DNA from: Deltaproteobacteria bacterium
GTDB lineage: Bacteria > Desulfobacterota > Binatia > UBA1149 > CAITLU01
Reading direction: 5' to 3'
Assembly (NCBI GenBank): GCA_016218925.1
Contig: JACRCR010000072.1
Span: forward strand, 1-60,327
Length of the DNA: 60,327 nt
The notes below the pieces were generated by a model that saw only the letters and a program-made list of their open reading frames with translations, had not been told where the DNA came from and made no database searches. A program made the position numbers and the translations under genes. The stretch's first letter is position 1; each line of letters opens with the position of its first letter. This document shows, piece by piece, positions 5,287-50,255 of this stretch.

Positions 5287-6417
5287 TCAGTTCAATTCGT
5301 AGGCGACGATGTCGCTCGGGAACGAATCGCCGGGTGCGAGCACCGTGCTGCTCGACGGATATTCGGGCGGCAACTTGTCGGGCCCGATCACGTAGGCGTC
5401 GACGCGGTCGAGTCCGGCCTGCGCGACGTAGAGGATGCCGCCGCGTAGCACCATGCGTGCGGGGTATGACGACGGATCGTCTTTGGTACTGGCGAAGGGC
5501 GGTTCTTCCGGCAGCATGCCGTCGTCGGCGACCGTGAACAGATCGATGCGCCCGGCGTTGTAGGCCGAGGCGTACAGCGTGGTGCCGTCGAGCACGATGC
5601 TCGAATAGTACTGCGCCGCCTTGGTTCTGGAGTCCTGCTCCGCAGGCAGGGTACCGTCAGCAAGGATGCGGTAGGCGCGGATCGCGCGATCGCCGGCCGA
5701 AGTCACGTACAGAATGTTGTCGCGGATCTCCATGTCGTCGGGCAACGAGATCGCGTCGATCGGATCCTGGGCCTCCGCATCGTCGGGGACGTTGCCGTCG
5801 GCATCGAGCAGGAATACGTCGATGAGCTGGGAGCGCCGCGAGCCGGCGTACAGATAGCCGCCGCTGAGCTCGAGCGAAACGTAGTCGGCCGGGTACTGGC
5901 CGGTTCCGACCCCGGTCGGATCGGCGGGTACCATACCGTCCTGCAACTCGAAGGACTCGACGAGTCCGTAGCCGGTGATCGCAGCGTATAGAATCCCGTT
6001 GCGTACGATCAGATCCAGCGGCACCGAGTCCTCGCGAACGTCGGTTTGGGCGTCGGGGCCGACCGGTAGCGCACCGTCCTGGCCAAGCCTTGCCGAAACG
6101 ATGCGATCTTCGGTGGCGACGTACAGGATGCCATCGTTGATGGTCAGGCGCCGCGGGTTGGTCAGGTGCATGGTCGAGAACGGCGCGGCTGGCAGCAGGC
6201 CATCGGTGCCGAGCCGGTAGGCATCGACGCGGTCGCCCTGGGCCATCGTGACGTAGAGCACGATGTTGCCGGGCGGCGCGGTGGTGGTGGGCCCGGGCGG
6301 AAGATCGGACGAGGTCCCACTTCCTGCGCCGCACGAGGCGGTGGCCATCACGCAAAGGGCGAGGAGGAGGGCGCGGGGGCCGCAGAGGCGCCGCAGCTTC
6401 GATGCAGGCTCAGGCAT
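5287..6417 (-). CDS. Beta-propeller lipoprotein
   Basis: A 376-residue lipoprotein: signal peptide with lipobox-like TASC at about residues 26-29, then a Thr/Pro-rich linker. The body is repeated strands of the form GILYVATEDRIVSARLGQDG, NILYVTSAGDRAIRAYRIL and TTLYASAYNAGRIDLFTV, spaced about 45-50 residues, as in six- or seven-bladed lactonase/YncE propellers. It is convergent with the STN-like gene and divergent from the THUMP gene across about 150 bases. No catalytic residues are recognisable, so binding or a structural role in the cell envelope is as likely as an enzyme activity. Confidence 0.78.
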   Translation of the reverse strand: MPEPASKLRRLCGPRALLLALCVMATASCGAGSGTSSDLPPGPTTTAPPGNIVLYVTMAQGDRVDAYRLGTDGLLPAAPFSTMHLTNPRRLTINDGILYVATEDRIVSARLGQDGALPVGPDAQTDVREDSVPLDLIVRNGILYAAITGYGLVESFELQDGMVPADPTGVGTGQYPADYVSLELSGGYLYAGSRRSQLIDVFLLDADGNVPDDAEAQDPIDAISLPDDMEIRDNILYVTSAGDRAIRAYRILADGTLPAEQDSRTKAAQYYSSIVLDGTTLYASAYNAGRIDLFTVADDGMLPEEPPFASTKDDPSSYPARMVLRGGILYVAQAGLDRVDAYVIGPDKLPPEYPSSSTVLAPGDSFPSDIVAYELN

Positions 6418-6567
6418 GCGCGACCATTAGCCAAGGCTCGGGCTGCTGTCCAGCCGGCGCCGCGCCGCCGGCGCCTTCGCGCAGGTTGACGCGACATCGC
6501 GCCCGACACAGGGCGCAGTGTGTGCGGATTCGTTGCCGCACCTCGGCGCGGCAACGATAATCGGCCG

Positions 6568-7143
6568 ATGGCCCATGCTCGAAACGATGCAGAGGAGTGG
6601 AATGTACTGGTGGTGTGCCGCCAAGGGCCCGGCGTGACGGGCCGGACTCTGGCAGCCCTTGGCCGCCTGGGGCGTTTTCGTACCGGCGGCTACCCGCAGG
6701 TTCTGCTCGGCGTGGTGGGTCGCACTCGCGCCACCTCTGCGCCATCGCTGGCGGCCGGCATCGAAGAACTGGTGGCCGGCGCGGCGCCCTTCGACGAACT
6801 GGTGGAAAGAGTGCTCCCGGTGGAGAAGGCGATCCTGTTTCGCCGCGATGACGTGACCGAGACACTGTGCGAGGAACTCGAAGGGACAGGTCCAAGGCTG
6901 GCCGGCAGGAGCTTTCATGTGCGCAGCCACCTGCGAGGTCTCAAGGGCCGGGTCGAGCACCCCGCGCTCGAGCGCGCGCTTGGGGCGTTCCTGGCCGAGA
7001 GGGCGGAAGCCGCCGGCGCGCCGGCGCGCGTCACCTTCGACGACCCCGACTTCATCGTCGCGGTCGAGGTTGCCGGCCAGAGGGTAGGCTACGCGTTCCT
7101 GGATCGGGAGCTGCGCGCATCGTCGCGCGTGCGCGCCAAGTAG
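6568..7143 (+). CDS. Stand-alone THUMP-domain protein
   Basis: A 191-residue protein with an RNA-binding THUMP domain in its C-terminal half (GRSFHVRSHLRGLKGRVEHP, then DDPDFIVAVEVAGQRVGYAF). The N-terminal part starts VLVVCRQGPGVTGRTLAALG. Archaeal and eukaryotic Tan1/THUMPD1 proteins of this form assist tRNA acetylation; in bacteria THUMP is normally fused to a methyltransferase, thiouridylase or ThiI. No catalytic domain is attached here. The ATG at 6568 is chosen because the part of the open frame before it has no family character. The partner enzyme is unknown. Confidence 0.75.
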   Translation: MAHARNDAEEWNVLVVCRQGPGVTGRTLAALGRLGRFRTGGYPQVLLGVVGRTRATSAPSLAAGIEELVAGAAPFDELVERVLPVEKAILFRRDDVTETLCEELEGTGPRLAGRSFHVRSHLRGLKGRVEHPALERALGAFLAERAEAAGAPARVTFDDPDFIVAVEVAGQRVGYAFLDRELRASSRVRAK

Positions 7144-7171
7144 GCGCTCTCCGGCGCGCGTCGCCAGCGCC

Positions 7172-8191
7172 TCAGCCGTTCGGAGCCAGCAGAACCTTGA
7201 CGGCGCCGCTGTGTTTGTCGGACGCGGTCTCGAAGCCTTTCTGGATGTCCTCGAGGTCGAACGTGTGGGTGATCAGACGGCGCAGCACCTGTGCTCTGGA
7301 GGAGAGCAACTCGAGCGCGACCTCGAAATCGGCGCCGGCGCCGCGCGGCCGGTTGTAGACCATCGAGCCGACCAGACGCAGTTCCTTGATCAGCATGATC
7401 AGCGGCTCGAAAGCCGGGGTTTTCTCGAACAGCCCGACGATCACTACGCTGCCGCCGCGGGCGGCCGCGTAGACCGCGTCCGAGACCGTGGTGGCCTCGC
7501 CGCCGACGGTTTCGATCACCGTCTGCGGCGGCTCGCCGAGCGAGCCGACCTCGTCGGGGTGCAGCACCTGATCGACGCCGATCGCCTCGGCCAAAGCGCG
7601 TTGATGCGGATGGCGGGCGGTGATCGCGACGAAGCCCGCGCCGGCGTGGCCACACGCCGCGGCTGCCAGCAGTCCGATGGTGCCGGCACCGAGCACCAGT
7701 ACGCGGCTGCCTTTGGTGACGCCGCCGAGGCGCGCGGCGTGTACCGCGACGGCGGTGGGTTCGGCGAGCGCGCCGAGCTCGAAATCCACCTCGCGCGGAA
7801 GCGCGAACGTAGTGTAGTCGGGCGCCAGCACATGGGTAGCCATACCGCCGGCCAATCCGAGTCCCACGAACTCGAGCCCCGGGCACAGATGGTAGTCGCC
7901 GGCCAGGCAGTAAGCGCACTTCCCGCAGCGCGACAGAGGCTCGATCGTCACGCGGTCGCCTTCGCGCACGCCGCGAGCGCGGGCGCCCACTGCGTCGATG
8001 ATTCCGCTCATCTCGTGCCCCGGGCACGAGGGCGGCAGCATGCCGCGACCGCGAAACGCGTGCAGATCGCTGCCGCAGATGCCGCAGCGCTGCACGCGCA
8101 GGCGAACCTGACCGAGGCCGGGCACCGGCGTCGCAGCCTCGACGACGCCGATGCGCCCCGGTCCCTGGTAGCGGGCCTGTCTTTCCATCAC
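7172..8191 (-). CDS. Zinc-dependent alcohol dehydrogenase (MDR family)
   Basis: A 339-residue medium-chain dehydrogenase. Catalytic zinc ligands are CGICGSDLHAF and PGHEMSG; the structural zinc loop CGKCAYCLAGDYHLC has all four Cys. The nucleotide-binding strand is VLVLGAGTIGLLAAAAC. Members oxidise secondary alcohols, sugar alcohols or threonine with NAD(P)+. It follows the first acyl-CoA dehydrogenase gene by 4 bases, so it is probably the last gene of the TetR-led leftward operon and may feed carbon into, or drain it from, beta-oxidation. The substrate is not determined. Confidence 0.9.
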   Translation of the reverse strand: MMERQARYQGPGRIGVVEAATPVPGLGQVRLRVQRCGICGSDLHAFRGRGMLPPSCPGHEMSGIIDAVGARARGVREGDRVTIEPLSRCGKCAYCLAGDYHLCPGLEFVGLGLAGGMATHVLAPDYTTFALPREVDFELGALAEPTAVAVHAARLGGVTKGSRVLVLGAGTIGLLAAAACGHAGAGFVAITARHPHQRALAEAIGVDQVLHPDEVGSLGEPPQTVIETVGGEATTVSDAVYAAARGGSVVIVGLFEKTPAFEPLIMLIKELRLVGSMVYNRPRGAGADFEVALELLSSRAQVLRRLITHTFDLEDIQKGFETASDKHSGAVKVLLAPNG

Positions 8192-8195
8192 GCGA

Positions 8196-9422
8196 TCAAT
8201 TCAGCTCGCCGCTGCTGTAGCCGAGAATGCTGCGCGCGATGATGAGCTGGTTGATCTGCTGGGTGCCCTCGTAGATGTCGGTGATCTTGGCGTCGCGCAT
8301 CCACTTCTCGAGCATCATCTTGCGCGAGTAGCCGAGAGCGCCGGCCAGTTCGACGCACTTTTGGGTGACTCGGGTGACGACGGTTCCGGCCTTGGCCTTG
8401 GCCATCGACGCCTCGCGCGAGTTGCGCTGCCCGCGGTCCATCATGTTGCAGGCCTTCCAGGTCAGCAGCCGCGCCGCCTGGAGCTGGGCCTCCATGTTCA
8501 TCACTTCGCGTTCGAGCACGGTCTGCTCGGACGGTCCCGCTTCGTAGCGGATCGCGATGCCCTGCTCGGCGAGAACTTGCGTGAGGACCTCGAGCGCCGC
8601 GCGCGCCACGCCGATGCCGCTGGCCGCGACGATCGGGCGCGTGCTGTCGAAGGTCGCCATCACGCCGCCGAAGCTGCCGGTGGAGCCCTTCTCGACGATC
8701 TCGGCGGTGCCGAGGATGTTGTCGGCGGGGATGCGCGCGTTGTCGAGTGTGATAGTCACCGTGTCGGATGCGCGGATGCCCATCTTGTCTTCGAGTCTGG
8801 TGACGGTGACCCCCGGCGTTCCGGCCGGCACGATGAACGACTTGATGGCGGCGCGGCCCTTGCTGCGATCCAGAGTGGCCCACACCACGACGAAACCGTC
8901 GGACTCGTTGAGGGCGCGGTGCCCGGCGGTGCAGAATATCTTGGTGCCGTTGAGCACCCACTCGTCTCCTTCACGCACCGCGGTGGTCGCGACCTGCTTG
9001 GAGTCGGAGCCGAAGTGCGGCTCGGTGATCGCCATCGCGCCCCACTTGGGCTTGCCCTTGTAGAAGCTGCCGAGGAAGCGCTGCTTCTGCTCGGGCGTTC
9101 CCACCGCCTGAACAGCCGCGCCGCCCAGGCCGGGGTTGGGGATCGACAGGTACAGACCGGCGTCGCCCCAGGCCAGTTCCTCGATCTGCATACACGCCAG
9201 CAGCGTGTTTTCGGAGACCTTCTTGTCGCCGCTCTTCTTGCCGCCGAGCGAAGTGGCCTCGGCGTTGGCTTTGCTGGCCTCCCACATCGTGTTGAAGAAA
9301 TCCCACGGGTCGGTGTGTTCCTCTTCGTCGTACTGGCGAGAGATCGGCCGCATCAGACTCTCGGCCGCCATGCGTGCCATCGCGATCCTTCCCTGGGCTG
9401 CCTTTGAAAGACTGAAATCCAT
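8196..9422 (-). CDS. Acyl-CoA dehydrogenase
   Basis: A 408-residue FAD-dependent acyl-CoA dehydrogenase that introduces the alpha-beta double bond in an acyl-CoA and passes electrons to ETF. Recognisable blocks are AMAITEPHFGSDSKQVATTA (substrate/FAD contact), WVLNGTKIFCTAGHRA and the C-terminal DIYEGTQQINQLIIAR, whose Glu (about residue 386) is at the catalytic-base position of the short/medium-chain enzymes. It lies 62 bases downstream of a second acyl-CoA dehydrogenase gene in the same operon. Chain-length specificity cannot be read from the sequence. Confidence 0.93.
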   Translation of the reverse strand: MDFSLSKAAQGRIAMARMAAESLMRPISRQYDEEEHTDPWDFFNTMWEASKANAEATSLGGKKSGDKKVSENTLLACMQIEELAWGDAGLYLSIPNPGLGGAAVQAVGTPEQKQRFLGSFYKGKPKWGAMAITEPHFGSDSKQVATTAVREGDEWVLNGTKIFCTAGHRALNESDGFVVVWATLDRSKGRAAIKSFIVPAGTPGVTVTRLEDKMGIRASDTVTITLDNARIPADNILGTAEIVEKGSTGSFGGVMATFDSTRPIVAASGIGVARAALEVLTQVLAEQGIAIRYEAGPSEQTVLEREVMNMEAQLQAARLLTWKACNMMDRGQRNSREASMAKAKAGTVVTRVTQKCVELAGALGYSRKMMLEKWMRDAKITDIYEGTQQINQLIIARSILGYSSGELN

Positions 9423-9484
9423 GATGTCGTACTCCTGTCTGTCCTGTCCCCTGACTCTCTATCGCACCTCGTCGCGGGTCGCGC

Positions 9485-10573
9485 TCAGATGCTGGCGATG
9501 CCCTCGAAGGTCGCGAAGCCGCGGCCGTTGCGCACCCACATCTCGCTCGGATGATCGCGAATGAAGCCGTGTCCGCCGAGCACCTGCAGGCCGTTGTCGG
9601 TCACCGTCATCACCATGTCCGCGCAGTAGCGGTGGGCGAGCGCGACTTCGCGCGCCGCCTCGTTTCCCTGGTCGAGGTTCCACGCCGCCTCCCAGTTGAG
9701 CAGGCGCGCAGCGTCGGTCTCGGTTGCCATGTCGGCGAGCATGAACGCGATCGCCTGCTTCTGGCCGACCTTGACGCCGAACACGTCGCGTTCCTTGGCG
9801 TAGCCGATGGCGTAGTCGAGAGTGGCCTTGGCCACGCCCACCGCCATCGCCGACTGCGCCACGCGCGCACGCCGCAGCAGTTTGGCGGCGTCGCCGGGCA
9901 GCCGCGCCGAATCCGGCACGCGGCAGCCGCGCAGCGCGATCGAGTACAACTCCAGCGCATGCAGCCCGAGCATCTTCTCGCGCTCGCCAATCTCGAGTCC
10001 CGGCGTTCCGGAGGGAACCACGAACGCTGCCAGCGCCCCGCTGTCATCGGCCGCGTAGACGACGATCCAAGGCGCCGCCTTGGCCAGCGGCACCATGCAC
10101 TTGTCGCCGTCGAGCACCCAGCCGCCGCCATCGCGGCGCGCTGTGGTGCGCATCCGGGTGAAGTGGAAATTGATGTGCGGCTCGAGCACCGCGGCGCTGC
10201 CCGGGACGAAGCGTTCGCCGAGGTAGGCCGGTAGCAGGTCCTGCTTCTGCTGCTCGGTTCCCAGCACCAGTACCGGGTCGACCACCAGCCGCGGCGACAG
10301 CAGGTGCAGCGCGATGGCGAGGTCTCCCTCGGCAAGTCCTTCGGCGATCAGCGCGCCGGTTACCGCCGAAGGCGCCTGGCTGGCATAGCCGCCGTAGGCC
10401 TCGGGGACCGATCCCTGGATGAGACCGAGTTCCCACGCGGCGTCGACCAGGCTTTCCGCAACTGTCGCGGTCTCGTCGGCTTCACGGGCGGCCGGCCGCA
10501 CGCGCTCGGCCGCGAACGACGTCACGGTCTCGCGGATCAGTTGCTGTTCTTCGTCGAACTCGAAATCAATCAC
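9485..10573 (-). CDS. Acyl-CoA dehydrogenase, shorter paralogue
   Basis: A 362-residue acyl-CoA dehydrogenase. The GTG at 10573 is chosen because it has a GGAGG site 8 bases upstream and begins IDFEFDEEQQLIRETVTSFA, the usual family N-terminus. Blocks WVLDGDKCMVPLAKAAPWIV and LQVLGGHGFIRDHPSEMWVR are present. The protein ends at FEGIASI, so the Glu is kept but the usual final helix is very short. The start overlaps the end of the TetR gene by 8 bases, so the two are translationally coupled. Paired divergent paralogues like this can work as heteromers, for example in sterol side-chain degradation; that is inference here. Confidence 0.92.
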   Translation of the reverse strand: MIDFEFDEEQQLIRETVTSFAAERVRPAAREADETATVAESLVDAAWELGLIQGSVPEAYGGYASQAPSAVTGALIAEGLAEGDLAIALHLLSPRLVVDPVLVLGTEQQKQDLLPAYLGERFVPGSAAVLEPHINFHFTRMRTTARRDGGGWVLDGDKCMVPLAKAAPWIVVYAADDSGALAAFVVPSGTPGLEIGEREKMLGLHALELYSIALRGCRVPDSARLPGDAAKLLRRARVAQSAMAVGVAKATLDYAIGYAKERDVFGVKVGQKQAIAFMLADMATETDAARLLNWEAAWNLDQGNEAAREVALAHRYCADMVMTVTDNGLQVLGGHGFIRDHPSEMWVRNGRGFATFEGIASI

Positions 10574-23687: not shown

Positions 23688-26600
23688 CTACTTGGCCTTG
23701 GCTCGGAACAGGGTCGGCACGTTCAGCAGCGTATCGGCCGGCGTGAAGGAACTGGTCCAGCACATGCCGGCGCTGTTGACGAATTGGACCGTCACCGCCG
23801 GATCCTGGTCGAACAGCGTCGCTTCGTCGAACGCGGTGGGCATCGGGAGCTCAACCCCGACCGCGGTTACACTCGCCCTTGCCCGTCCGACAGTTCCGGT
23901 GCGCAGTCGCACCTTGGACACGCCGTCCTGGGACCTGGCAGTGTCGTCGTACCAGTAGCCCATGGGATCCCTGTTGGTCCACAACGGGCCGGGCGCCAAC
24001 TGCACGGAGACCGCCAAGGTCGGCTGCCCCGCCGTCTGGTCGTAGACGCACAGCGCGTAGCTGGTAGTGGAGTCTGGCTCACCCAAGTCGAGTTGCGCGA
24101 CCTCGTCGCCCCGCAACCAGGTCCATTTCAGCAGGTCCTTGAGGTCGGTGGTCTTGTCCTTGATGCGCACTGCGGTCACCAGCGCGGCGCTGCAGTTCGC
24201 TTCGGGCACCGGCAGCGCCACGTTGTCGCATCCGGTGCCGGAGTCGCACGAATCGGTCGTGCAAAGGTCACCGTCGTCACAGTCGGTAGCGCCGCCTCCC
24301 ACGCACACTCCGCCGCTGCATGCGTCGGCGCTGGTGCAGGCGTTGCCGTCGCTGCACGCGACCGTGTTGTCGGGATGGCCGCAAGCCCCCGATCCGTCGC
24401 ACTGGTCGTCGGTGCAGAGGTTGCCGTCGCCGGTGCACGCGGTCGGTGCCGGATCGGTGCAGTCGCCTTCGGCTTCCTGGCAGGTATTGCACTCGGTTCC
24501 CGGGCATGGGTCGCCCGCGTGCGTCGAACAGGTCCCACCGGCGCAGGTGTCGGCGCCGTTGCAGAATACGGCGTCGTCGCACGGCGCGGTGTTGTTCGGG
24601 TGATCGCACACGCCCGAACCGTCGCACTGGTCGTCGGTGCAGAGGTTGCCGTCGCCGGTGCACGCGGTCGGTGCCGGATCGGTGCAGTCGTCTTCGGCCT
24701 CCTGGCAGCTATTGCAGTCGGTGCCGGGGCACGGATCGCCTGCGTGCGCCGAGCAGGTCCCGCCGGCGCAGGTGTCGGAGCCGTTGCAGAACACCCCATC
24801 GTCGCAGGAAGCGGTGTTGTTCGGGTGCGTGCAAGTTCCCGAACCGTCGCACTGGTCGTCGGTGCAGAGGTTGCCGTCGCCGGTGCACGCGGTCGGTGAC
24901 GGGTCGGTGCAGTCGCCTTCGGCCTCCTGGCAGGTGTTGCACTCGGTGCCTGCGCAGGGATCGCCGGCATGCGAGGAGCAGGCTCCGCCCGAGCAGGTGT
25001 CGCCGCCGTTGCAGAACGTGCCGTCGTCGCACGCGGCGGTGTTGTTCGGGTGGTTGCAGGTTCCCGTACCGTCGCAGTAGTCGTCGGTGCAAACGTTGCC
25101 GTCATCGGCGCACGGCGCGAGCGCCGGGTCGCTACAGGTGTCTGTGGCCTCCTGGCAGGTATTGCACTGCGTTGCCGGGCATGGATCGCCCGTGTGCGTA
25201 CAAGTGCCGCCGGCGCAGGTGTCGGTCCCGTTGCAGAACAGGCCGTCGTCGCAACCGCCGCTGTTGCTCGCATGCACGCAGCCGGTGCCGGTGTCGCAAC
25301 TGTCGTCCGTGCAGGGGTTCGCGTCGTTGCAGTCGAGCGCTATGCCGGTCCCGCAAGTCCCGCCCGAGCACATCTCGACGCCGTTGCAGGCGTTGCCGTC
25401 GCTGCACGGAGCGATGTTGTTGGTGTGCGTGCACCCGCTACCGGTGTCGCAACCGTCGTCGGTGCACGGATCGCCGTCGTCGCAGGCGGGCGGTAGCCCG
25501 GACCCGCAGGTTCCGCCCGAGCACGTCTCGGCGCCGTTGCAGGCGTCGCCGTCACTGCACGGGGCGCTGTTGTTGGTGTGCTCGCAGCCGGTAACGGTGT
25601 TGCAGGAGTCGTCAGTGCACAGGTTCGCGTCGTTGCAGTCGAGCGCGATGCCAGCCCCGCAGACGCCACCCGAGCACATCTCGATGCCGTTGCAGGCGTC
25701 GCCGTCGCTGCACGGAGCGGCATTGTCCGGGTGCACGCAGGCTCCCGAGCCGTCGCAGTAGTCGTCGGTGCAAGGGTTGCCGTCGTCGGTGCACGCCTCC
25801 TGCGCCGGGTTCGTGCAGTCCTGTTCGGCCTCCTGGCAGGCGTTGCACTGCGAGGCGGGGCAGGGATCGCCCGCGTGCGTGCAGACCCCGCCCGAGCAGG
25901 TGTCGGCGCCGTTGCAGAACACCCCATCGTCGCAGGAAGCGGTGTTGTTCGGGTGCGTGCAAGTTCCCGAACCGTCGCAGTAGTCGTTGCTGCACACGTT
26001 GCCGTCGTCGGGGCAAGGCGTCAGCGGCGGGGCGGTACAGTCGTTGCCAGCCTCGTCGCAGGTCAGACACGTCGTACCCGGACACGGATCGCCACCGTGC
26101 GCCGAACAGGTTCCGCCCGAGCAGGTGTCGGCGCCGTTGCAGAACAGGCCGTCGTCGCAGGCGGCGCCGTCGTCGGGCGTGCACACCGACGGTTCGCCGG
26201 TGCACACGTAGCATTCGGCGACGCCGCAGTTGGCGTCGCAGCCCGGGCCGCCGCCGGTGTCGCAAGTCTCGTTGGCGTCTAGGAAGCCGTCACCGCACTG
26301 GTGCCAGACGCCGATGTAGACCGAGACGTAGCCGCCGGCTTTCACGAAGGAGCCGCCGGCGTACAGATCCGAGCCGGACAGGGCAAGTGCCGAAACCGAA
26401 CTGCTGGAAGCGCCGGTATTCTCGGCGCCGGAATTCAGCGCTGCCCACGCGGTGCCGTCCCAGCGGGCGATGCGGTTCCCCGGTCCTCCACCGGCGAGGG
26501 TGAAGCTGCCGCCGGCGTACAGGTCGGTGCCGCTGGCCAGCAGGGCTTCGACGGTGCTGCCGACGTCGGCGATGCCGCTGCCGAGCGCCGACCAGGTCGT

Positions 26601-42893: not shown

Positions 42894-43262
42894 GACCACA
42901 CAACCTACAGGGCTTCGAATCCGGCCTGAAGCGAAGGCGCCCGCGCCGCCGTGCGCTCGGAAAGAGTTGGTCGCGCAAATAGCTGGCTCGAGGGGCGTAC
43001 ACTGCATGCGCGAGTCGTAGCCGACCGCACGTTGTTTGGAGGCTCCGAGCATTCCTCTGTCCTCACGGGTCGGCCTCGGGCGGCTCCCGTGCTTCGCGAA
43101 AACCGCTGTTAACCGAGATCCCCGAAAGTTCGCCTGGTGGAGCGAATGCCGCGCCATTATTCCGCTGCACCCGTTCTCTGGTTAAGGGAACGGATTCGAG
43201 CCGCGACTTGCCGGGCGCGGCTATGCGCTTGTCGAGGCTGCGCCATTGGCGTACCCTGCGTT
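42894..43262. other. Intergenic space between cytochrome and higB genes
   Basis: 369 bases that should hold the leftward cytochrome promoter. The right half is occupied by repeat R1 (43108-43191). Otherwise I see nothing. Confidence 0.5.
43108..43191 (+). repeat. Island repeat R1 (foldable)
   Basis: 84 bases starting GTTAACCGAGATCCCC. It folds into two stems: TTAACCGAGA (43109-43118) with TCTCTGGTTAA (43175-43185), one base bulged, and GGTGGAGCGAAT (43136-43147) with ATTCCGCTGCACC (43159-43171). It is homologous to R2 at 44033-44119 and its left half to R3 at 47202. Unequal spacers between the stems recall, but do not prove, an integron attC site. Confidence 0.6.
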
Positions 43263-43580
43263 GTGCGCTTCGTTGAGACCCCGATCTTCACACGGCGCCC
43301 GCCCGAGTATCTCGACGACGAGGGGTATCGCGCATTGCAGATCGCTCTCCTACTTCGGCCGGAGCAAGGTCCCCTGATCCAGAGGTCGGGCGGCCTGCGC
43401 AAGATCCGGTGGGCCGTAGCGGGTCGCGGAAAGCGCGGCGGGATTCGCGTGATCTACTACTGGGCTCCTGCCGAGGCGGTCTTCTATATGTTGTATCTGT
43501 ACGCGAAGAACGAGCAGGGCGATCTTACTGCGGAGCAGGTCAGGCTCCTCGGTCGACTTGTCCGGGAGGAATTCAAATGA
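43263..43580 (+). CDS. higB: HigB/RelE-family toxin
   Basis: A 105-residue RelE-fold mRNA interferase of the HigB-2 type: FVETPIFTRRPPEYLDDEGY, QRSGGLRKIRWAVAGRGKRG, GIRVIYYWAPAEAVFYMLYL and YAKNEQGDLTAEQVRLL. It would cleave mRNA on the ribosome unless bound by its antitoxin. Toxin-first order with an ATGA overlap into the antitoxin gene is the usual higBA arrangement. The GTG at 43263 is chosen because it starts one residue before the family strand; the upstream part of the frame belongs to the repeat region. Confidence 0.88.
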   Translation: MRFVETPIFTRRPPEYLDDEGYRALQIALLLRPEQGPLIQRSGGLRKIRWAVAGRGKRGGIRVIYYWAPAEAVFYMLYLYAKNEQGDLTAEQVRLLGRLVREEFK

Positions 43581-43888
43581 AAGATGGTGCGTTTGCCGAA
43601 CTGGTCGAGAGTGTCCGGCAGGCGGGGCGGATTCGTCGCGGCCGCGCCAAGCCCGGACGGGTAACTGTGTTCGAGCCCGACGACGTCCGCGCGGTGCGTG
43701 CCAAGCTTGGGCAGTCGCAACCGGAGTTTGCCTTGCTGATCGGGGTCAGTGTTGCCACGCTCCGCAACTGGGAGCAGGGGCGGCGCACGCCGGAGGGTCC
43801 TGCTTTGGCGTTGCTCCGCGTGGCGGCACGCAACCCCCGGGCCGTGATCGAAGCACTCCACGGTGAGCGTCGCCGCGGTGCGGCCTGA
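43577..43888 (+). CDS. higA: HigA-type XRE antitoxin
   Basis: A 103-residue antitoxin overlapping the toxin gene by ATGA. It has a flexible N-terminal part (FAELVESVRQAGRIRRGRAK) and a helix-turn-helix RAKLGQSQPEFALLIGVSVA with TLRNWEQGRRTPEGPALALL. It should neutralise HigB and repress the operon. Stops about 145 bases before repeat R2. Confidence 0.9.
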   Translation: MKDGAFAELVESVRQAGRIRRGRAKPGRVTVFEPDDVRAVRAKLGQSQPEFALLIGVSVATLRNWEQGRRTPEGPALALLRVAARNPRAVIEALHGERRRGAA

Positions 43889-44032
43889 CGCCCCGCGAGT
43901 AGCTGCGACGTCCCCGTATCGACGAAACGCCGTCGCCTGACGTCACGGCGAACTCGTGGGTGCCAACCTCAGGCCGTTCCTCCGCTGGCACCACGACGGG
44001 CGTGGCCGCGGATCGGATGGAGACGTCATCGT

Positions 44033-44119
44033 GTTGAACGAAACCGCGGCAGAGTGTTCGCCGGGTGGAACGAATGCCACCCCGTTCGTCCGTTGTACCC
44101 ATTCTCTGGTCAAGGGAAC
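44033..44119 (+). repeat. Island repeat R2
   Basis: 87 bases starting GTTGAACG, homologous to R1 (shared GTTCGCC, GGTGGA, CGAATGCC, TTCTCTGGT and AAGGGAAC blocks in the same order). GTTGAAC fits the 7-bp GTTRRRY integron core. It lies between higA and the DUF1566 gene. Confidence 0.6.
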
Positions 44120-44161
44120 TCCGGATCGAAGTGGGCCTGCGTGTCGAGTACCCGACGGATT

Positions 44162-44182
44162 TTGCCCGTTCACGTTGGCAAT
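44162..44182. repeat. 21-bp inverted repeat, first copy
   Basis: TTGCC-N10-GGCAA with flanking AT; 20 of 21 bases are shared with 53906-53926. The similarity is weaker but continues for about 20 bases on the left. Could be an operator or the end of a repeat element. Confidence 0.5.
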
Positions 44183-44409
44183 TGGCTGCGTAGGCACTCT
44201 TGGCGATCCGAAGACGATCCCGCGACGGCTCCGACTGCACTGACCCCGTCGGATGAGGTTTTGACGAGGCACACGCGGCTGACGTAGCATCAACCCAAGC
44301 GGGGGAAGGACACGTCCCCTTCCTTCCTATCGGGTGCCTGAAATGCATGGGGCACTCGGGTGCAGCGGCAGAACGGGTGCCCTGCCGATCACCATGCACC
44401 GAGGCAACC

Positions 44410-45378
44410 ATGCGAAAGACGATGATGGCAGTGGCGGTCGCCGGGCTGGTACTCACGGCGGTCTCGGCGCTGGCGGCAGCGCCGCCAGCGGACAAGTGCG
44501 AGGCGAGCAAGAACAAGACCGCCGGGGCGTACTACTCGTGTCGGGAAAAGGCCGAAGCAACCGCGATCACCAAGGCCGCCACTCCCGACTACAGCAAGTG
44601 CAGCACCAAGTTCGATAGCAGCTGGGACAAGGCAGAAACCGCTGGCGCTGGGGCGTGCCCCGACACCGTTCTGACCGCGCCGGTGAACACGTATATCGCC
44701 GCCCAGGCGGCGGAGGCTGCATCGGTGGTCGCGGGAGCGCCCATTCCAGACTGCGCGGGGGATCTTTCCGCCTGTGAGGGCAACCTTGCCGCGTGCGTCG
44801 CTTCTTCGACGGGCGGGCTGCCAGTGACGGGGCAGACGACGGGTTACGGCACGGGTTCGGACGGCGACGTGGAGGCCGGTGTGGCGCGGTCGTTCACGGA
44901 CAACGGTGACGGCACGATCACGGACAACGTGACGGGTCTGATGTGGGAGAAGAAGGACGACAGCGATCTCGGCGGGGCCGCCGGCATCCACGACAAGGAC
45001 AACACGTACACGTGGGGAATATCCACCAGTCCATACCCAATGGACGGCACGATCGTGACGACCTTTCTGGCGACACTGAACGCCGGCGGCGGCTTCGCGG
45101 GTCACACGGACTGGCGAGTGCCGAACCAGTTCGAATTATTCTCCCTCGTGAACCTGGGGGTGGTGGCTCCCTCGACCTACTCGGCGTTCAACACGGGTTG
45201 CGCGGCGCCGTGCACGGTGACGACGTGTAGCTGCACGCAGTCGGACGGCTACTGGTCGTCCTCGACGGCCCAGGGCATTCCGTCGTCCGCGTGGTTCGTG
45301 GACTTCTACCGCGGGGACGCGGTCAACAACTTCAAGACGGATAGCATGGACGTTCGCGCCGTTCGTGCCGGCTCTTGA
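44410..45378 (+). CDS. DUF1566-domain protein, likely DGR variable (target) protein
   Basis: A 322-residue exported protein. A GAGG site precedes the ATG at 44410. Signal peptide MAVAVAGLVLTAVSALAAA; then a Cys-containing segment (KCEASKNKTAGAYYSCREKA). The C-terminal domain is DUF1566/C-type-lectin-like: SFTDNGDGTITDNVTGLMWE, GGFAGHTDWRVPNQFELFSL, DGYWSSSTAQGIPSSAWFVD and the end VNNFKTDSMDVRAVRAGS. This ending is typical of variable proteins diversified by retroelements. A perfect hairpin and an avd remnant follow directly. The variable region would be the last 100-140 bases. Confidence 0.82.
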   Translation: MRKTMMAVAVAGLVLTAVSALAAAPPADKCEASKNKTAGAYYSCREKAEATAITKAATPDYSKCSTKFDSSWDKAETAGAGACPDTVLTAPVNTYIAAQAAEAASVVAGAPIPDCAGDLSACEGNLAACVASSTGGLPVTGQTTGYGTGSDGDVEAGVARSFTDNGDGTITDNVTGLMWEKKDDSDLGGAAGIHDKDNTYTWGISTSPYPMDGTIVTTFLATLNAGGGFAGHTDWRVPNQFELFSLVNLGVVAPSTYSAFNTGCAAPCTVTTCSCTQSDGYWSSSTAQGIPSSAWFVDFYRGDAVNNFKTDSMDVRAVRAGS

Positions 45379-45412
45379 TCACTTGGATATTCGGAACTTG
45401 ACCATTGGCGGT

Positions 45413-45431
45413 TCGGGGGCGTAGCCCCCGA
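45413..45431. other. 8-bp stem, 3-base loop hairpin after the variable region
   Basis: TCGGGGGC-GTA-GCCCCCGA, perfectly paired, 34 bases after the DUF1566 stop. Known diversity-generating retroelements carry a similar short GC-rich cruciform just downstream of the variable region that aids retrohoming. No T run follows, so a terminator is less likely. Confidence 0.65.
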
Positions 45432-45454
45432 TGCTCCCAAGAAGAGGTGGCGCG

Positions 45455-45589
45455 ATGCCTCGGACGGAACATCTGCCGATCTACAAGTCTGCGTACGACC
45501 TGTGCCTGTGGCTGGAACAGGTCGTGCGCGGCTTCTCGCGCTACCACGAGTATGCGATCGGGAGCGACCTCTGCGACGGCGCGCGGTAA
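45455..45589 (+). pseudogene. avd: Truncated avd (DGR accessory variability protein)
   Basis: A 44-codon frame with a GAAGAGG site upstream, encoding PRTEHLPIYKSAYDLCLWLE then QVVRGFSRYHEYAIGSDL. This is the first helix and a half of Avd, the four-helix partner of the retroelement reverse transcriptase, normally about 115-125 residues. It stops at TAA after CDGAR, and no continuation is found in any frame downstream. The position, 76 bases after the DUF1566 gene, is the usual avd position. The reverse transcriptase and template repeat are missing from the window. Confidence 0.75.
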
Positions 45590-46001
45590 GCACGTGCGGC
45601 CCTCCGTCTCCGCTACCCGCCGCGCATTGCCGAAGCGCACGGCAGCTGTGGGTCTGTGGTGTTCGGCGCCCGCGGGTGCACTCGTGGTTAATTGCGCGGC
45701 TCGACAAGCACGACGCCACCACTCGCAAACCCCTGCGAACAAAGCGCGAGATAGCGCCCCGTCCGCGAGGGGGGAGGGCGCCGCCGCGCCGAGAGAGAAA
45801 GTTGGTGTGCGAAGAATTTGCCTCCGCACTTTTTCGGCACCCGAATCTCTCTGTCTCTGCAATCGAGCTCGCCGCGAGCGAGAGAGTTTTGTCACCAAAA
45901 GCCGCGGGGAGTTTTGTCACCCAAGACCGGGGGGTGCCGAGAAAATCGGTCATGCTTGCGGGCAGGTAGAAAACGAGTTCCGGGGAAATTCCCGCCGACC
46001 C
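45590..46001. repeat. Repeat-rich spacer with R5, between avd remnant and RelE-like gene
   Basis: 412 bases. The block at 45786-45807 (GCGCCGAGAGAGAAAGTTGG and two more bases) is identical to 49850-49871, and weaker similarity continues on both sides (GGTTAA, GCAAACCC, GAAGAA, GCCTCC). Two direct copies of GAGTTTTGTCACC lie at 45884 and 45909. Open frames here show no recognisable product. The region seems to have replaced the rest of the avd/reverse-transcriptase genes. Confidence 0.6.
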
Positions 46002-46292
46002 TTGCTCCTCCTCGCGCCGCAGGCGCAGAGCGATTTCGCTGCGCTGGAGAACGATAGCGGGCTCGCCAAGCGGCTGAAGGCGGCCCGCAAGACGCTCGGG
46101 CTGCTCCAGCTCCACGGCCCGCGCTATCCCGGTCTGCAATCTCACAAGTACGACAGTCTCGAAGGCGCTCACGGAGAAGATGTTCGGGAATCCTACGTCG
46201 TGCAGCGGACGCCGGCCGTGTATCGCATCTTTTGGCACTACGGACCTGGCCAGCGTGAGATCACGATTCTGGCGATCACGGCCCATCCGTAG
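46002..46292 (+). CDS. RelE/ParE-like toxin-type protein, possibly 5'-truncated
   Basis: About 96 residues: APQAQSDFAALENDSGLAKR, LKAARKTLGLLQLHGPRYPG, LQSHKYDSLEGAHGEDVRES and TPAVYRIFWHYGPGQREITI. It looks like a small RelE/ParE-fold protein of the kind often found as orphan toxins. No good ATG or GTG fits the expected N-terminus; a TTG at 46002 without a ribosome-binding site is the only nearby choice. The sequence just before it belongs to the repeat spacer, so the original start may have been lost. No antitoxin gene adjoins it directly. Confidence 0.6.
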   Translation: MLLLAPQAQSDFAALENDSGLAKRLKAARKTLGLLQLHGPRYPGLQSHKYDSLEGAHGEDVRESYVVQRTPAVYRIFWHYGPGQREITILAITAHP

Positions 46293-46426
46293 GCCTGTCG
46301 TCCCGTTAGGCGAACCCCCCACGGGTCGGCAAGCTTGCCGGAACCGGGCCAAAACCAGCGGAGCGGTATAGAGACTGCCATCTAATCAGGCTTGACCGGC
46401 GTGATGGCAAAGGCCAGTCTAGCCGC

Positions 46427-46699
46427 ATGAAAACCGCCCCCGTCACTGACCTCAAGAACCGTCTGAGCCACTATCTGCGGCTGGTCGCGCGCGGTGAAAG
46501 CGTCACGATCACCGATCACGGTCAGCCCGTAGCCCGCCTGAGCCGGGTGGAGGCCAGTTCGGCCGATACGGCTTCGTTGGTTGCCGCCGGGCTCGCAAGG
46601 GCGCCGCTTGCCCCGCTGCCGCCGGATTTCCTCGAGCGGCCGCTGCCCGTCGGCGACGTCCGGCAGGCGCTTCTCGAGGATCGCGAGGACCGGTTCTGA
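46427..46699 (+). CDS. vapB: Phd/YefM-type antitoxin (VapB role)
   Basis: A 90-residue antitoxin. The N-terminal Phd fold is clear: TAPVTDLKNRLSHYLRLVAR, GESVTITDHGQPVARLSRVE. The C-terminal part, PPDFLERPLPVGDVRQALLE, would wrap the toxin. It stops 2 bases before the PIN-domain gene. Confidence 0.9.
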   Translation: MKTAPVTDLKNRLSHYLRLVARGESVTITDHGQPVARLSRVEASSADTASLVAAGLARAPLAPLPPDFLERPLPVGDVRQALLEDREDRF

Positions 46700-46701
46700 G
46701 C

Positions 46702-47124
46702 ATGCTGTACTGGGATGCTTCGGCGCTGGTTTCGCTCTGCGTGGAGGAGCAGGAGACGGCGCTGCTTCGCCGCTTGGTCGAGGGTGGCATCGTTACCTGG
46801 GCCGTCTCGCGGGTCGAGATTGCTTCCGCCATCGAGCGGCGCAGCCGCGAGGGTCGTCTCGTGCCCGAAGCGCGACTCCGGGCGATTGCGGCACTTGGTG
46901 AACTGGCCGACGCATGGACCGAAATCCAGCCCATTGCGCCGGTGTGCGAACGCGCGCTGCGACTGCTGGCGATCCACCCGCTGCGGGCCGCCGACGCGAT
47001 GCAACTTGCTGCCGCGCTGGTCGCGGTGTCGGATCAGCCGCGCGGCCACGGCTTTGTCTGCACGGACCGGCGGCTTCGCGAGGCGGCTTCGCGCGAAGGA
47101 TTCCGTATCGTTCCGGAGATGTGA
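46702..47124 (+). CDS. vapC: PIN-domain ribonuclease toxin VapC
   Basis: A 140-residue PIN nuclease. Acidic metal ligands: Asp5 in MLYWDASALVSLCVEE, Glu in SRVEIASAIERRS, Asp in LRAADAMQLAAALVAV and Asp in FVCTDRRLREAASRE. VapC toxins cut initiator tRNA or rRNA. Two bases separate it from its antitoxin gene. Repeat R3 begins 77 bases after its stop. Confidence 0.92.
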   Translation: MLYWDASALVSLCVEEQETALLRRLVEGGIVTWAVSRVEIASAIERRSREGRLVPEARLRAIAALGELADAWTEIQPIAPVCERALRLLAIHPLRAADAMQLAAALVAVSDQPRGHGFVCTDRRLREAASREGFRIVPEM

Positions 47125-47681
47125 AGTCGCAGGCGCGCATCCCGTGTGCCTCCCAAGAAGCCCATCCAACCTGTATCAAGCGGATCCTTCTGGAGAACGG
47201 TGTTGAACGAGATCCCCGAAAGTTCGCCTGGGGGAGCGAATGGCTCCGCAGCCGGTCGCTCAGGCGAGCGAGTTTTCAGAGAAAAACAGAGAATCCAAAC
47301 TCGCCGGGACCTGAGAAAGGCTTCGGATTCAGAGTGTTGCGAGACGAGGTCGTTCGCGAGCGAATACTGGGCCCCCATTCTTCGGCTGAACCATCACCGG
47401 TGTGCGGCGGGGGCTCTCTCGCCGCCGCCGATTGGTGCCTTGATCTTGAGAACTTTGATGCGGCGGGCTGTCGCCGAGCGGAAAGCGTCGGGCTTTCGGT
47501 CGAGGCGAGGAGGCGGCAACCAGTCGATAGACGAGCTCGACGATCACCCCCTGGGCAGCACGGCTATTCCCGCCCACCCACTGGTCGAGACGCTCCTCGG
47601 TGACGATTCTGTTGCTCATCAGGTTAGGCGAGTATCTTGACACCGAGCTGTCGACGGCTCGATGGTGCTACTTCGCGGCTG
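47125..47681. other. Intergenic space between vapC and the PIN gene (convergent)
   Basis: 557 bases between convergent genes. Repeat R3 fills 47202-47330. Beyond it the stretch to about 47396 (GGGCCCCCATTCTTCGGCTG) is weakly similar to the right arm of R2 in the same order, so the original element may have been longer. No gene is supported here. Confidence 0.55.
47202..47330 (+). repeat. Island repeat R3 (composite, foldable)
   Basis: The left 41 bases match R1 at 38 positions (GTTGAACGAGATCCCC start). The right 77 bases (47254-47330) match R4 (49896-49972) at 67 positions without gaps. The right part folds: CTCAGG with CCTGAG outside, GCGAGTTT with AAACTCGC inside. R3 thus joins the R1/R2 and R4 families into one. 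Confidence 0.65.
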
Positions 47682-48194
47682 TTACTTTCCCAATAGGTCA
47701 CGAAAGGATGCGAACGCCATCTTGAAGCGTCTCCGTTCGAGAACAGCCTTGTCAGCGTCGGCGCCTTCGATCGAGTGTAGCCCCGCACGAATAGCGAGAA
47801 TGAAGAGATCCGGCGTGCCGATAAGTCGCTCCTTGCCGAGGCGACTCTCGGCTTCGCGCCTGAATCGCTTCCGCTCGTCGGAGGCCAGAATCCAACCGTG
47901 TTCGAGCGCCAGCGCGAGGCAAGCCGCCTCGCCGCGACCGACATGCTCGATCAGTTGAGTGAACAGGGCGATGGAGTCGAGGTTGGTGAGCGACGCGATG
48001 GTTAGCGCGTCGCCTGCGACGGCGGCATCGAGAACTTCGCGCTGCTCGGCGACGGTGATTTCTTCGCGGACATGATCTGGAACTACGAGCCGATATCCGG
48101 GTATCCTCGCAAACATCTCGAGCCGCCCAACGTGGATCACGTTGATCAACACGTTGGCGTCGGTGACGACGATGTGGCGAGGCGGAGTTGTCAC
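47682..48194 (-). CDS. PIN-like nuclease (DUF3368-type toxin)
   Basis: A 170-residue PIN-like protein. Acidic positions: Asp in VVTDANVLINVIHVGRLEMF, Glu in PDHVREEITVAEQ, Glu in HVGRGEAACLALALEHGW and Asp in ILASDERKRFRREAE. Such proteins are usually toxins or RNases. The start overlaps the upstream XRE-ImmA gene by ATGA, so the pair is a likely toxin-antitoxin module: the metalloprotease/regulator first, nuclease second. Confidence 0.85.
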   Translation of the reverse strand: MTTPPRHIVVTDANVLINVIHVGRLEMFARIPGYRLVVPDHVREEITVAEQREVLDAAVAGDALTIASLTNLDSIALFTQLIEHVGRGEAACLALALEHGWILASDERKRFRREAESRLGKERLIGTPDLFILAIRAGLHSIEGADADKAVLERRRFKMAFASFRDLLGK

Positions 48195-49450
48195 TGAGCC
48201 GCGCTCGCACCCACAGGCTCGTCGTCGCCGAGACCGGCTTCATCGACCAACTGATCGACCGCTTCGCCGGGCAGGCCCACCATTCGACCGAGTTCGTCCA
48301 GTTTGCCTCGGGAAATGTCCTCCCGCCGATAAGCTTCCAGTGCGAGGCCGAGGAAGCGATGCTGAAACTCGTTCCGCGTCTCCTCGTGGTCCGGTTCGGA
48401 TAGTCCAAGCAGCTTGGATAGCTGCTTCCCCTTGCCGGCGGTGTCCAACGCTCTGAGACTCTCAAACTCGGCTTCGCTCACGATCCGCAAATTGCGAAGC
48501 CGATAGAGGGCGGTAAGACGGCTCACCTCGAAGCTATGCGCGAGCAGCACAACGTCGTACATCTGGACGGTCTGGCTACCCGCTTCCGTGCGCCCTTCGA
48601 CGTCGACGCTGCCTACCTCGTCGAAAACCTCTGCGTAAACGCGGCTTGCTTTGCCTTTCCCAAGACCGGCGATTACCTGGCGCACGCCGTCTTCCGGCAT
48701 CAGGAAGTTTGCGGCGAATGCGTTGGCGCGGACCTCCAAGAGGTCGTCGCGCTCGGATGCGCGGCTCACTAGGCCGAATCGGTCACGGTCGACCACGACG
48801 TGTGCGTACTCATGGGCGAAGGAGAAACGACGCCGCAGAACGTGATGCGCGCGATTGGCCACTACGAAGAGGCCGATCTTGGCATCACTGAGCGTGAGGC
48901 CGGAGACGTCGTCGGGGAGGTCGACCAGTCCGGTGCGAACTCCCTGGGCTTCCAGCAGGCTCGCGAGATCCGGCAGAGGCGCGCTGCCAAGACCGAGTCG
49001 ACGACGTTCCTCGTCAGCGAGACGTTGCCCCTGCTCGATGGCGTCCCAACGCGTGCGAGGAGTGTGGATCGGGTACGAGGCGACCGCGGTCAGGTCACGA
49101 TCGATACCAAGGATTCGTTCGAGGCTCGTCAGCTCATGTCCAAGCGCGATGCACTGGCGCAGGCTCTCGACGACGCCTGGCTGACCGGCGACGTCACCTT
49201 GCGCCCGGAAGAGCGCAGCGAGCTTGTCTTCCTCCTCGAAGGGTTGTGCGAGGAACTCGCCGATGTTGCGGCCAAAGAGGTGGGCGAGTTTGTCGAGCTC
49301 AAGGCTCGACACCGTGCGGTTACCTGCCTCGATCTGACCGACGGTCGGGCGGGAGAGGTCGAGGCGCGTGGCCACCTCGTCCTGAGTCATACGACAAGCC
49401 TCTCGTGCGGCTCGAATTCTTGCGCCTAACTCCTGTTGGGTAATCGCCAT
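48191..49450 (-). CDS. XRE regulator fused to ImmA/IrrE-family metallopeptidase
   Basis: A 419-residue protein. A GAGG site supports the ATG at 49450 over a GTG at 49462. An XRE helix-turn-helix spans about residues 8-65 (MTQDEVATRLDLSRPTVGQI). The ImmA/IrrE zinc peptidase motif HEYAH lies in RRRFSFAHEYAHVVVDRDRF with the third ligand Glu in LLEVRANAFAANFLMP. The C-terminal 150 residues are helical. Such proteins sense a signal and degrade a regulator, as in phage ICEBs1 or radiation response; here paired with a PIN nuclease. Confidence 0.88.
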   Translation of the reverse strand: MAITQQELGARIRAAREACRMTQDEVATRLDLSRPTVGQIEAGNRTVSSLELDKLAHLFGRNIGEFLAQPFEEEDKLAALFRAQGDVAGQPGVVESLRQCIALGHELTSLERILGIDRDLTAVASYPIHTPRTRWDAIEQGQRLADEERRRLGLGSAPLPDLASLLEAQGVRTGLVDLPDDVSGLTLSDAKIGLFVVANRAHHVLRRRFSFAHEYAHVVVDRDRFGLVSRASERDDLLEVRANAFAANFLMPEDGVRQVIAGLGKGKASRVYAEVFDEVGSVDVEGRTEAGSQTVQMYDVVLLAHSFEVSRLTALYRLRNLRIVSEAEFESLRALDTAGKGKQLSKLLGLSEPDHEETRNEFQHRFLGLALEAYRREDISRGKLDELGRMVGLPGEAVDQLVDEAGLGDDEPVGASAAQ

Positions 49451-50255
49451 GGGTTTCCTCACGTTCGGGTTGCGCGCGTGGCCGAGGTCGCGACGTTCGG
49501 AGAGAGAACAAGAGAGGGCTCTGGGCGCGGGGCGCTACTACGCCGCGCTGGACCCTCTCCGAGGATCGGACTCGTCATGCGGCGAGGTTAGGCTTTCGGG
49601 CGACAGGCGTCAAACGGGGGAGTATGCGTTCGGTTTCTGCCTGGCGATTGCGGGCGGATTCTGGTCCAGGAATGCTCTCCCCAGACCGCCGCTCAGAGAG
49701 CGCGAGAGCACGAAATCGCGCCTCCCGAAACGCGAACGCGCGCGCTCTTGGTTAAGGAACGGAGCCCACATAGCAGCGCGCTCAGCGCGCAAACCCGCGC
49801 GACATCACGCGTATTTCGCGCACGTCGGCGCCGCGCACAGCAGGCGAGGGCGCCGAGAGAGAAAGTTGGTGGTGGAAGAAACTGGCTCCCCGTTCGGTCG
49901 CTCAGGCGAGCGTGTATTCTGAGAAAAACAGAGAGTCCAAACTCGCGAGGGCCTGAGAAAGCCTTTGGTTTCGAGACCCTGGCGCATCGCTCCGTCCGCG
50001 GCTGACGAATGGGGTGCCCAGTCGGTTGCTGCACCGATTCCCAGATCCCAAGAGACCTCGCATCGAGTTCGACCCGGCGCAAGACCACCTCGGATACCTC
50101 CGAGGCGCGGTAAACGTCGCCCGGTCCGCGTTTGCCGCACATGCGGAGGGATGTCGGCGCCGTTCCGACTCTTCGCGGGCTCACAGCCTTCGCGACGAAC
50201 GACGGTAAGCGTGCCGTCGGGCCTGATGTGGTCTTCGGCATACACAGTGGCCAAG
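49451..50255. other. Long repeat-bearing spacer between XRE-ImmA and STAND genes
   Basis: 805 bases with no supported gene. Left third: leftward promoter region of the XRE-ImmA gene. Centre: repeat R4 (49850-49972). The part to 50255 is open in several frames but without family character. A GGTTAAGGAACGG block at 49748 recalls the right end of R1. Confidence 0.55.
49850..49972 (+). repeat. Island repeat R4
   Basis: The first 22 bases are identical to 45786-45807 (R5). Bases 49896-49972 match R3 at 67 of 77 positions without gaps (GGTCGCTCAGGCGAGCG start, GAGAAAAACAGAGA and CCTGAGAAAG blocks). The outer stem CTCAGG/CCTGAG is kept; the inner stem has two mismatches compared with R3. Confidence 0.65.

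Follow-up and report, generated by a model that had tools for sequence, protein, structure and literature searches.

The window analysed here, a stretch of 60,327 nucleotides, is the whole of contig C197 in an assembly (G000) of 4.66 Mb and 245 contigs that is 94% complete. On its forward strand lies a gene that is open in one frame (44410..45378), followed by a short hairpin (45413..45431) and by the start of an avd gene (45455..45589). The 322-residue product of the open frame has a signal-peptide-like N-terminus, read directly from the sequence, and matches the Lcl_C/DUF1566 domain (PF07603) over residues 168-319 with an E value of 3.2e-23. DUF1566 has the CLec fold and is a common target of diversity-generating retroelements, or DGRs (PMC6642488). 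The match predicts for the window protein the C-type-lectin-like domain of a DGR target; searches against PDB sequences gave no useful match. The 3' end of the gene (45244..45378, plus strand), IMH-like end included, is the variable region (VR), as delimited by a gap-free alignment to the template of a related element. A preliminary description of this DNA had proposed the relic of a DGR with a target gene, a hairpin and a truncated avd. All three are confirmed, and the order of target, VR, hairpin and avd start is collinear with that of an intact DGR in the one other genome of the same genus, which belongs to a different species. Judged by its sequence, the window gene is an orphaned DGR target.

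The intact DGR of the related genome (G001) is found on contig C52, where target, hairpin, avd, template (TR) and reverse transcriptase (RT) follow one another. In the extracted locus (L038), the target spans 5622-7228, Avd is at 7314, and the template and the RT occupy 7890-8031 and 8028-9875, respectively. Both proteins match PHROGs profiles (Avd, 4e-17; reverse transcriptase, 4e-98); with Pfam, RVT_1 is matched and bAvd falls just under the cut-off. The RT motifs, LPIGNLTSQ and YVDD, are those that we take to mark the DGR type, as opposed to the QGxxxSP of the group-II type. At its C-terminus the same RT matches MutS domain I (PF01624, E 1.4e-4, above the curated cut-off). Apparent frameshifts in the DGR-adjacent target (L038 6780-6836) and at the end of avd (7620-7660) represent either decay or assembly error. 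Three more target copies lie near the intact DGR on the same contig (67022, 68966 and 83224); they have no hairpin, their VRs are nearly identical, adenine sites included, and they appear to be frozen duplicates. The preliminary description would have been abandoned had related genomes lacked DGRs, and complete elements with the same gene order occur in both the genus and the class. In the DGRs of four genomes of the class (G049, G110, G048 and G029), the template and the adjacent VR have no differences at non-adenine sites.

The reference for the window VR is the G001 template, the only one from the same genus, and not the template of the species itself. Over 135 bases aligned without gaps, 25 of the 43 adenine sites are changed and 9 of the 92 other sites; a local alignment of 134 columns gives 24/42 and 9/92 (Fisher p 1.4e-8). 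At the level of sequence this adenine bias is a DGR fingerprint, with the VR differing from a same-genus template almost only at adenines. The DUF1566 match and the adenine-specific changes together bear out the earlier recognition of a DUF1566 protein with a variable-protein ending. One of the nine non-adenine differences, at VR position 56, is common to all three VRs of the window's own genome, which suggests that it probably reflects the template of that species. The own genome contains target copies outside the window on contigs C188 and C13 and, weakly, on C114. Third-codon sites of the window gene and the C188 copy are alike at 34 of 44 positions in the VR (0.77) and at 134 of 271 upstream of it (0.49; p 6e-4). 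The corresponding identities with the C13 copy are 0.70 and 0.51 (p 0.03), and the same contrast between the window and G001 is not significant (p 0.19). Greater sharing in the VR than upstream among the paralogs of one genome is as overwriting by one template would give.

The hairpin (TCGGGGGC-GTA-GCCCCCGA; 45413..45431, plus strand) has a perfect GC stem of 8 bp (45413-45420/45424-45431), as described previously, and a loop of 3 nt, GTA. It begins 34 nt past the target stop and ends 23 nt ahead of the avd ATG. The fold of this stretch alone is no more stable than that of shuffled sequence (z -0.58); what supports the hairpin is homology. In the intact G001 DGR the same stem recurs, with spacings of 36 and 22 nt, and a GC-rich stem is also seen in most intact relatives at the equivalent place just past the VR. 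In the Bordetella phage BPP-1, the target site likewise includes a hairpin with an 8-bp GC stem past the VR, which is required in cis for efficient homing (PMC3240598); without it, repair is severely impaired though not abolished (PMC12875486). The BPP-1 loop is a 4-nt GRNA, whereas the 3-nt GTA loop of the window recurs in several intact relatives.

The frame at 45455 was thought to encode the first 44 residues of Avd, and profile searches agree. It matches phrog_3206, "Avd protein of DGR", at E 0.0025 (profile positions 8-48 of 154), and it is 82% identical over 44 residues to the Avd of G001 (tblastn E 9e-22 to 1e-20). The coding part (45455-45586, plus strand) ends at a TAA stop at 45587, so that 44 codons remain of about 108 that are conserved in the full-length gene. 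Homology to the intact G001 avd at the DNA level stops at about 45585. Over 43 codons, the stub and the G001 avd differ with a dN of 0.086 and a dS of 0.82, a ratio of 0.10; the ratios of two intact avd pairs are 0.17 and 0.24. A long neutral phase would raise dN, and the low ratio argues, within the limits of 43 codons, that the avd break is recent on an evolutionary scale.

Past avd codon 44, the DGR order seen in G001 is replaced by other island DNA. The sequence joined to the break (45587..46300, plus strand) includes a fragment of a toxin-like ORF and matches G001 contig C14 at 45794-45997 (85%) and 46004-46300 (96%). It is followed by a Phd/PIN toxin-antitoxin module (46309..47122, plus strand; PF02604 and PF01850), whose 814 bases are 89.6% identical to L038 4253-3440, an inverted copy near the intact G001 DGR. 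The sequence past the stub had been called island repeat; its island-like nature holds, but little of it is repeated within the window. The toxin-antitoxin island around the target extends over 43137-49462, with a RelE-like/HTH pair, the Phd/PIN pair and, on the minus strand at 48191-49462, a protein that looks HTH-like by eye. Short island repeats pair 43104-43148 with 47198-47242 and 47218-47330 with 49861-49972. Elsewhere in the window, an internally repeated region (24318-26159) has several matches, at 68-71% identity, to one place in G001 (C52:73478-73928).

The absence of the remaining machinery was tested by sequence, profile and pattern searches. Within the window, no DGR RT, no template and no downstream TR or RT fragment was found, in agreement with the preliminary description. 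Its suggestion to search the whole genome was taken up, and neither a DGR-type RT nor a template repeat was found in the 94%-complete assembly. A search of the own genome for RVT_1 gave three loci (C188, C6 and C68), and the same three were matched by phrog_1423, a profile that is not DGR-specific. As candidates for the missing RT, the genes on C188 and C6 were rejected for their group-II-type motifs (QGGVISP and QGSSIGP, respectively), and the C68 hit was dismissed as partial and weak. With the RT of G001 as query, the C188 gene alone was found (E 1e-5). The G001 template, searched as DNA or as the pattern of its non-adenine sites, matched nothing in the own genome except target genes, and no second Avd was found there besides the window stub. 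Among the own target copies, the one on C188 has kept part of its 3' flank and has lost the hairpin. In the C13 copy (L016 852-1000), the VR runs without a gap into the first 15 bases of an RT gene (ATGAACGACGGCCCT), an arrangement that would result from a VR/template deletion.

An assembly artefact at 45586 would join unrelated stretches, with the true avd, TR and RT continuing elsewhere. The assembly is fragmented, and the pieces flanking the junction match different G001 contigs, as such an error would have it. This account is nevertheless improbable: the remaining avd, template and RT are nowhere in the assembly, equivalent stubs are present in many independent assemblies, and the flanking toxin-antitoxin module lies near the DGR in G001 too.

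When 148 genomes of the class were scanned with the first 44 Avd residues, matches to the start of Avd were obtained in 21. More than ten loci of the class carry an avd stub, whether or not the genome also has a DGR. Behind target genes, the stub lengths in codons include 40 in G002, about 49 in G048 (C183), about 24 in G025, about 19 in G103, about 21 in G056 (C3), about 28 in G001 (C2), 64 in G037 and about 15 in G067. Two further stubs in G049 are each 73 codons long. Six stubs (those of the window, G002, G066, G110:C52, G017 and G048:C183) end at codons 40-50, and the remaining ends fall within codons 15-29 or 55-73. The 40 codons of G002 had prompted the idea of a functional breakpoint common to the stubs, which was rejected, as the breakpoints scatter over codons 15 to 73. 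At most stub loci the target has an open frame longer than 240 codons; the frames of G048:C183 and G025 are short. Searches for a DGR RT found none in G000, G002, G025, G037, G067 and G103, and one is present in G001, G048, G049, G056 and G110. Contig C3 of G056 (L146) carries an avd stub followed by the relic of a template and by a piece of an RT, and on contig C52 of G110 (L150) avd is fused to an RT fragment; from their sequences, both look like dead DGRs.

The two stubs of G049 lie on contig C1 behind tandem DUF1566 targets (L042 5564-5950 and 7127-7513) that are 85% identical upstream. Both targets have a deleted hairpin and an avd break at codon 73, common to the pair. Compared with each other, their VRs differ at 23 of 45 adenine sites and at 6 of 99 other sites (p 2e-9), and they match the template on contig C24 at 98/99 and 94/99 of the non-adenine sites. 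The simplest reading of these sequences is that both targets acquired mutations in trans once they had duplicated, with the hairpin already gone, and with some room left for gene conversion from other copies. Re-mutation of stub-bearing targets after their duplication would make trans service real in this group.

Copy against copy, the G049 stubs have a dN of 0.084 and a dS of 0.081, and one of them contains an internal stop. These values, near-neutral in ratio, bear on whether a stub might be a working mini-protein, such as a short form of Avd that assists the RT or inhibits it. The six stub ends at codons 40-50 and the low dN/dS of the window stub against the G001 avd are in its favor, but further stubs have their ends within codons 15-29 or 55-73, those of G049 are unconstrained, and constraint before truncation explains the low ratio in the window. 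A working mini-protein is very hard to credit. The scattered breakpoints and the G049 dN/dS near 1 argue instead that, as far as sequence can tell, the avd stub itself has no function and is carried along as a passenger.

The reading preferred here, to which we give a probability of about 0.62, is that the window holds a recently orphaned and now probably frozen DGR target, cut off from its own machinery. Recombination in the toxin-antitoxin island, recent on an evolutionary scale, would have deleted the template, the RT and the 3' portion of avd or split them from the target. The exported product of the target gene would live on as a lectin-like binding protein, with a VR that is now most likely frozen. 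The VR and the hairpin, the presumed cis signals that receive cDNA, are kept, and re-mutation would be possible given an RT-template unit in trans. The preliminary description had posed a choice between a dead element and one served in trans. Either is possible for this genome, because the DGR RT is absent from an assembly that is 94% complete, but a frozen VR is the more likely of the two.

Two counterpoints to a frozen VR apply. In a 94%-complete assembly of 245 contigs, about 2.5 kb of RT locus could simply have been missed, and the young break and intact hairpin would also fit a recent satellite of an active DGR. On that view the window gene is a remote target whose diversification in trans continues through an RT-template unit located elsewhere in the genome and missed by the assembly, which is possible but distinctly less probable than the frozen state. 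The intact VR and hairpin, a stub that has not decayed so far, the trans service seen with the stub-bearing targets of G049 and the trans activity reported on incomplete loci in Thiohalocapsa PB-PSB1 (PMC10907252) all speak for such a satellite. Against it are the failure to find an RT, a template or a second Avd in the 94%-complete assembly and the 9/92 non-adenine differences from the G001 template, some of which are perhaps genuine differences between the templates of the two species. A broader and more speculative scheme, which we consider unlikely, extends this to the class: cassettes of VR, 3' flank and avd stub would spread as satellites and be re-diversified in trans, sometimes without a hairpin, by a resident or periodically re-acquired DGR, and the window gene would be dormant and re-activatable instead of dead.

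The closest known systems are the Avd-type DGRs with DUF1566/CLec targets in G001, G049, G110 and G029. They have the same target family, a VR at the 3' end, adenine-specific substitutions, and a GC hairpin past the stop followed by the start of avd, as in the window; unlike them, the window has no remaining avd, template or RT. Treponema denticola isolates without RT and TR have likewise kept VR-bearing target genes after loss of the core; the available text on these remnants describes no avd stub (PMC4891356), whereas in the window the stub and hairpin mark the cut site. Remote variable proteins of cyanobacteria, such as Anabaena all3226 with its remnant TR-VR homology, are likewise dispersed paralogs distant from an RT (PMC7517822). 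They are described as intragenomic paralogs, and the available text of that report mentions no helper-gene stub. In Thiohalocapsa PB-PSB1, incomplete DGR loci were degraded by mobile elements with the target kept, as in the window, but that genome has an RT, and its reads showed variation (PMC10907252); for the window genome, no RT was found and the data are those of the assembly. Remote and remnant DGR targets are already known (PMC4891356, PMC7517822, PMC10907252). The window locus is a clear but fairly ordinary relic, because such leftovers recur across the class.

With these loci, the little-studied class Binatia most likely joins the groups with DGRs; a literature search returned no paper that mentions DGRs together with Binatota. 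Orphaned targets can be told apart from unrelated DUF1566 genes by a simple marker, the avd stub that follows an open target gene. Because the G049 copies were apparently mutated despite the loss of their hairpin, the stub-bearing loci also amount to a natural experiment on the cis requirements of a target.
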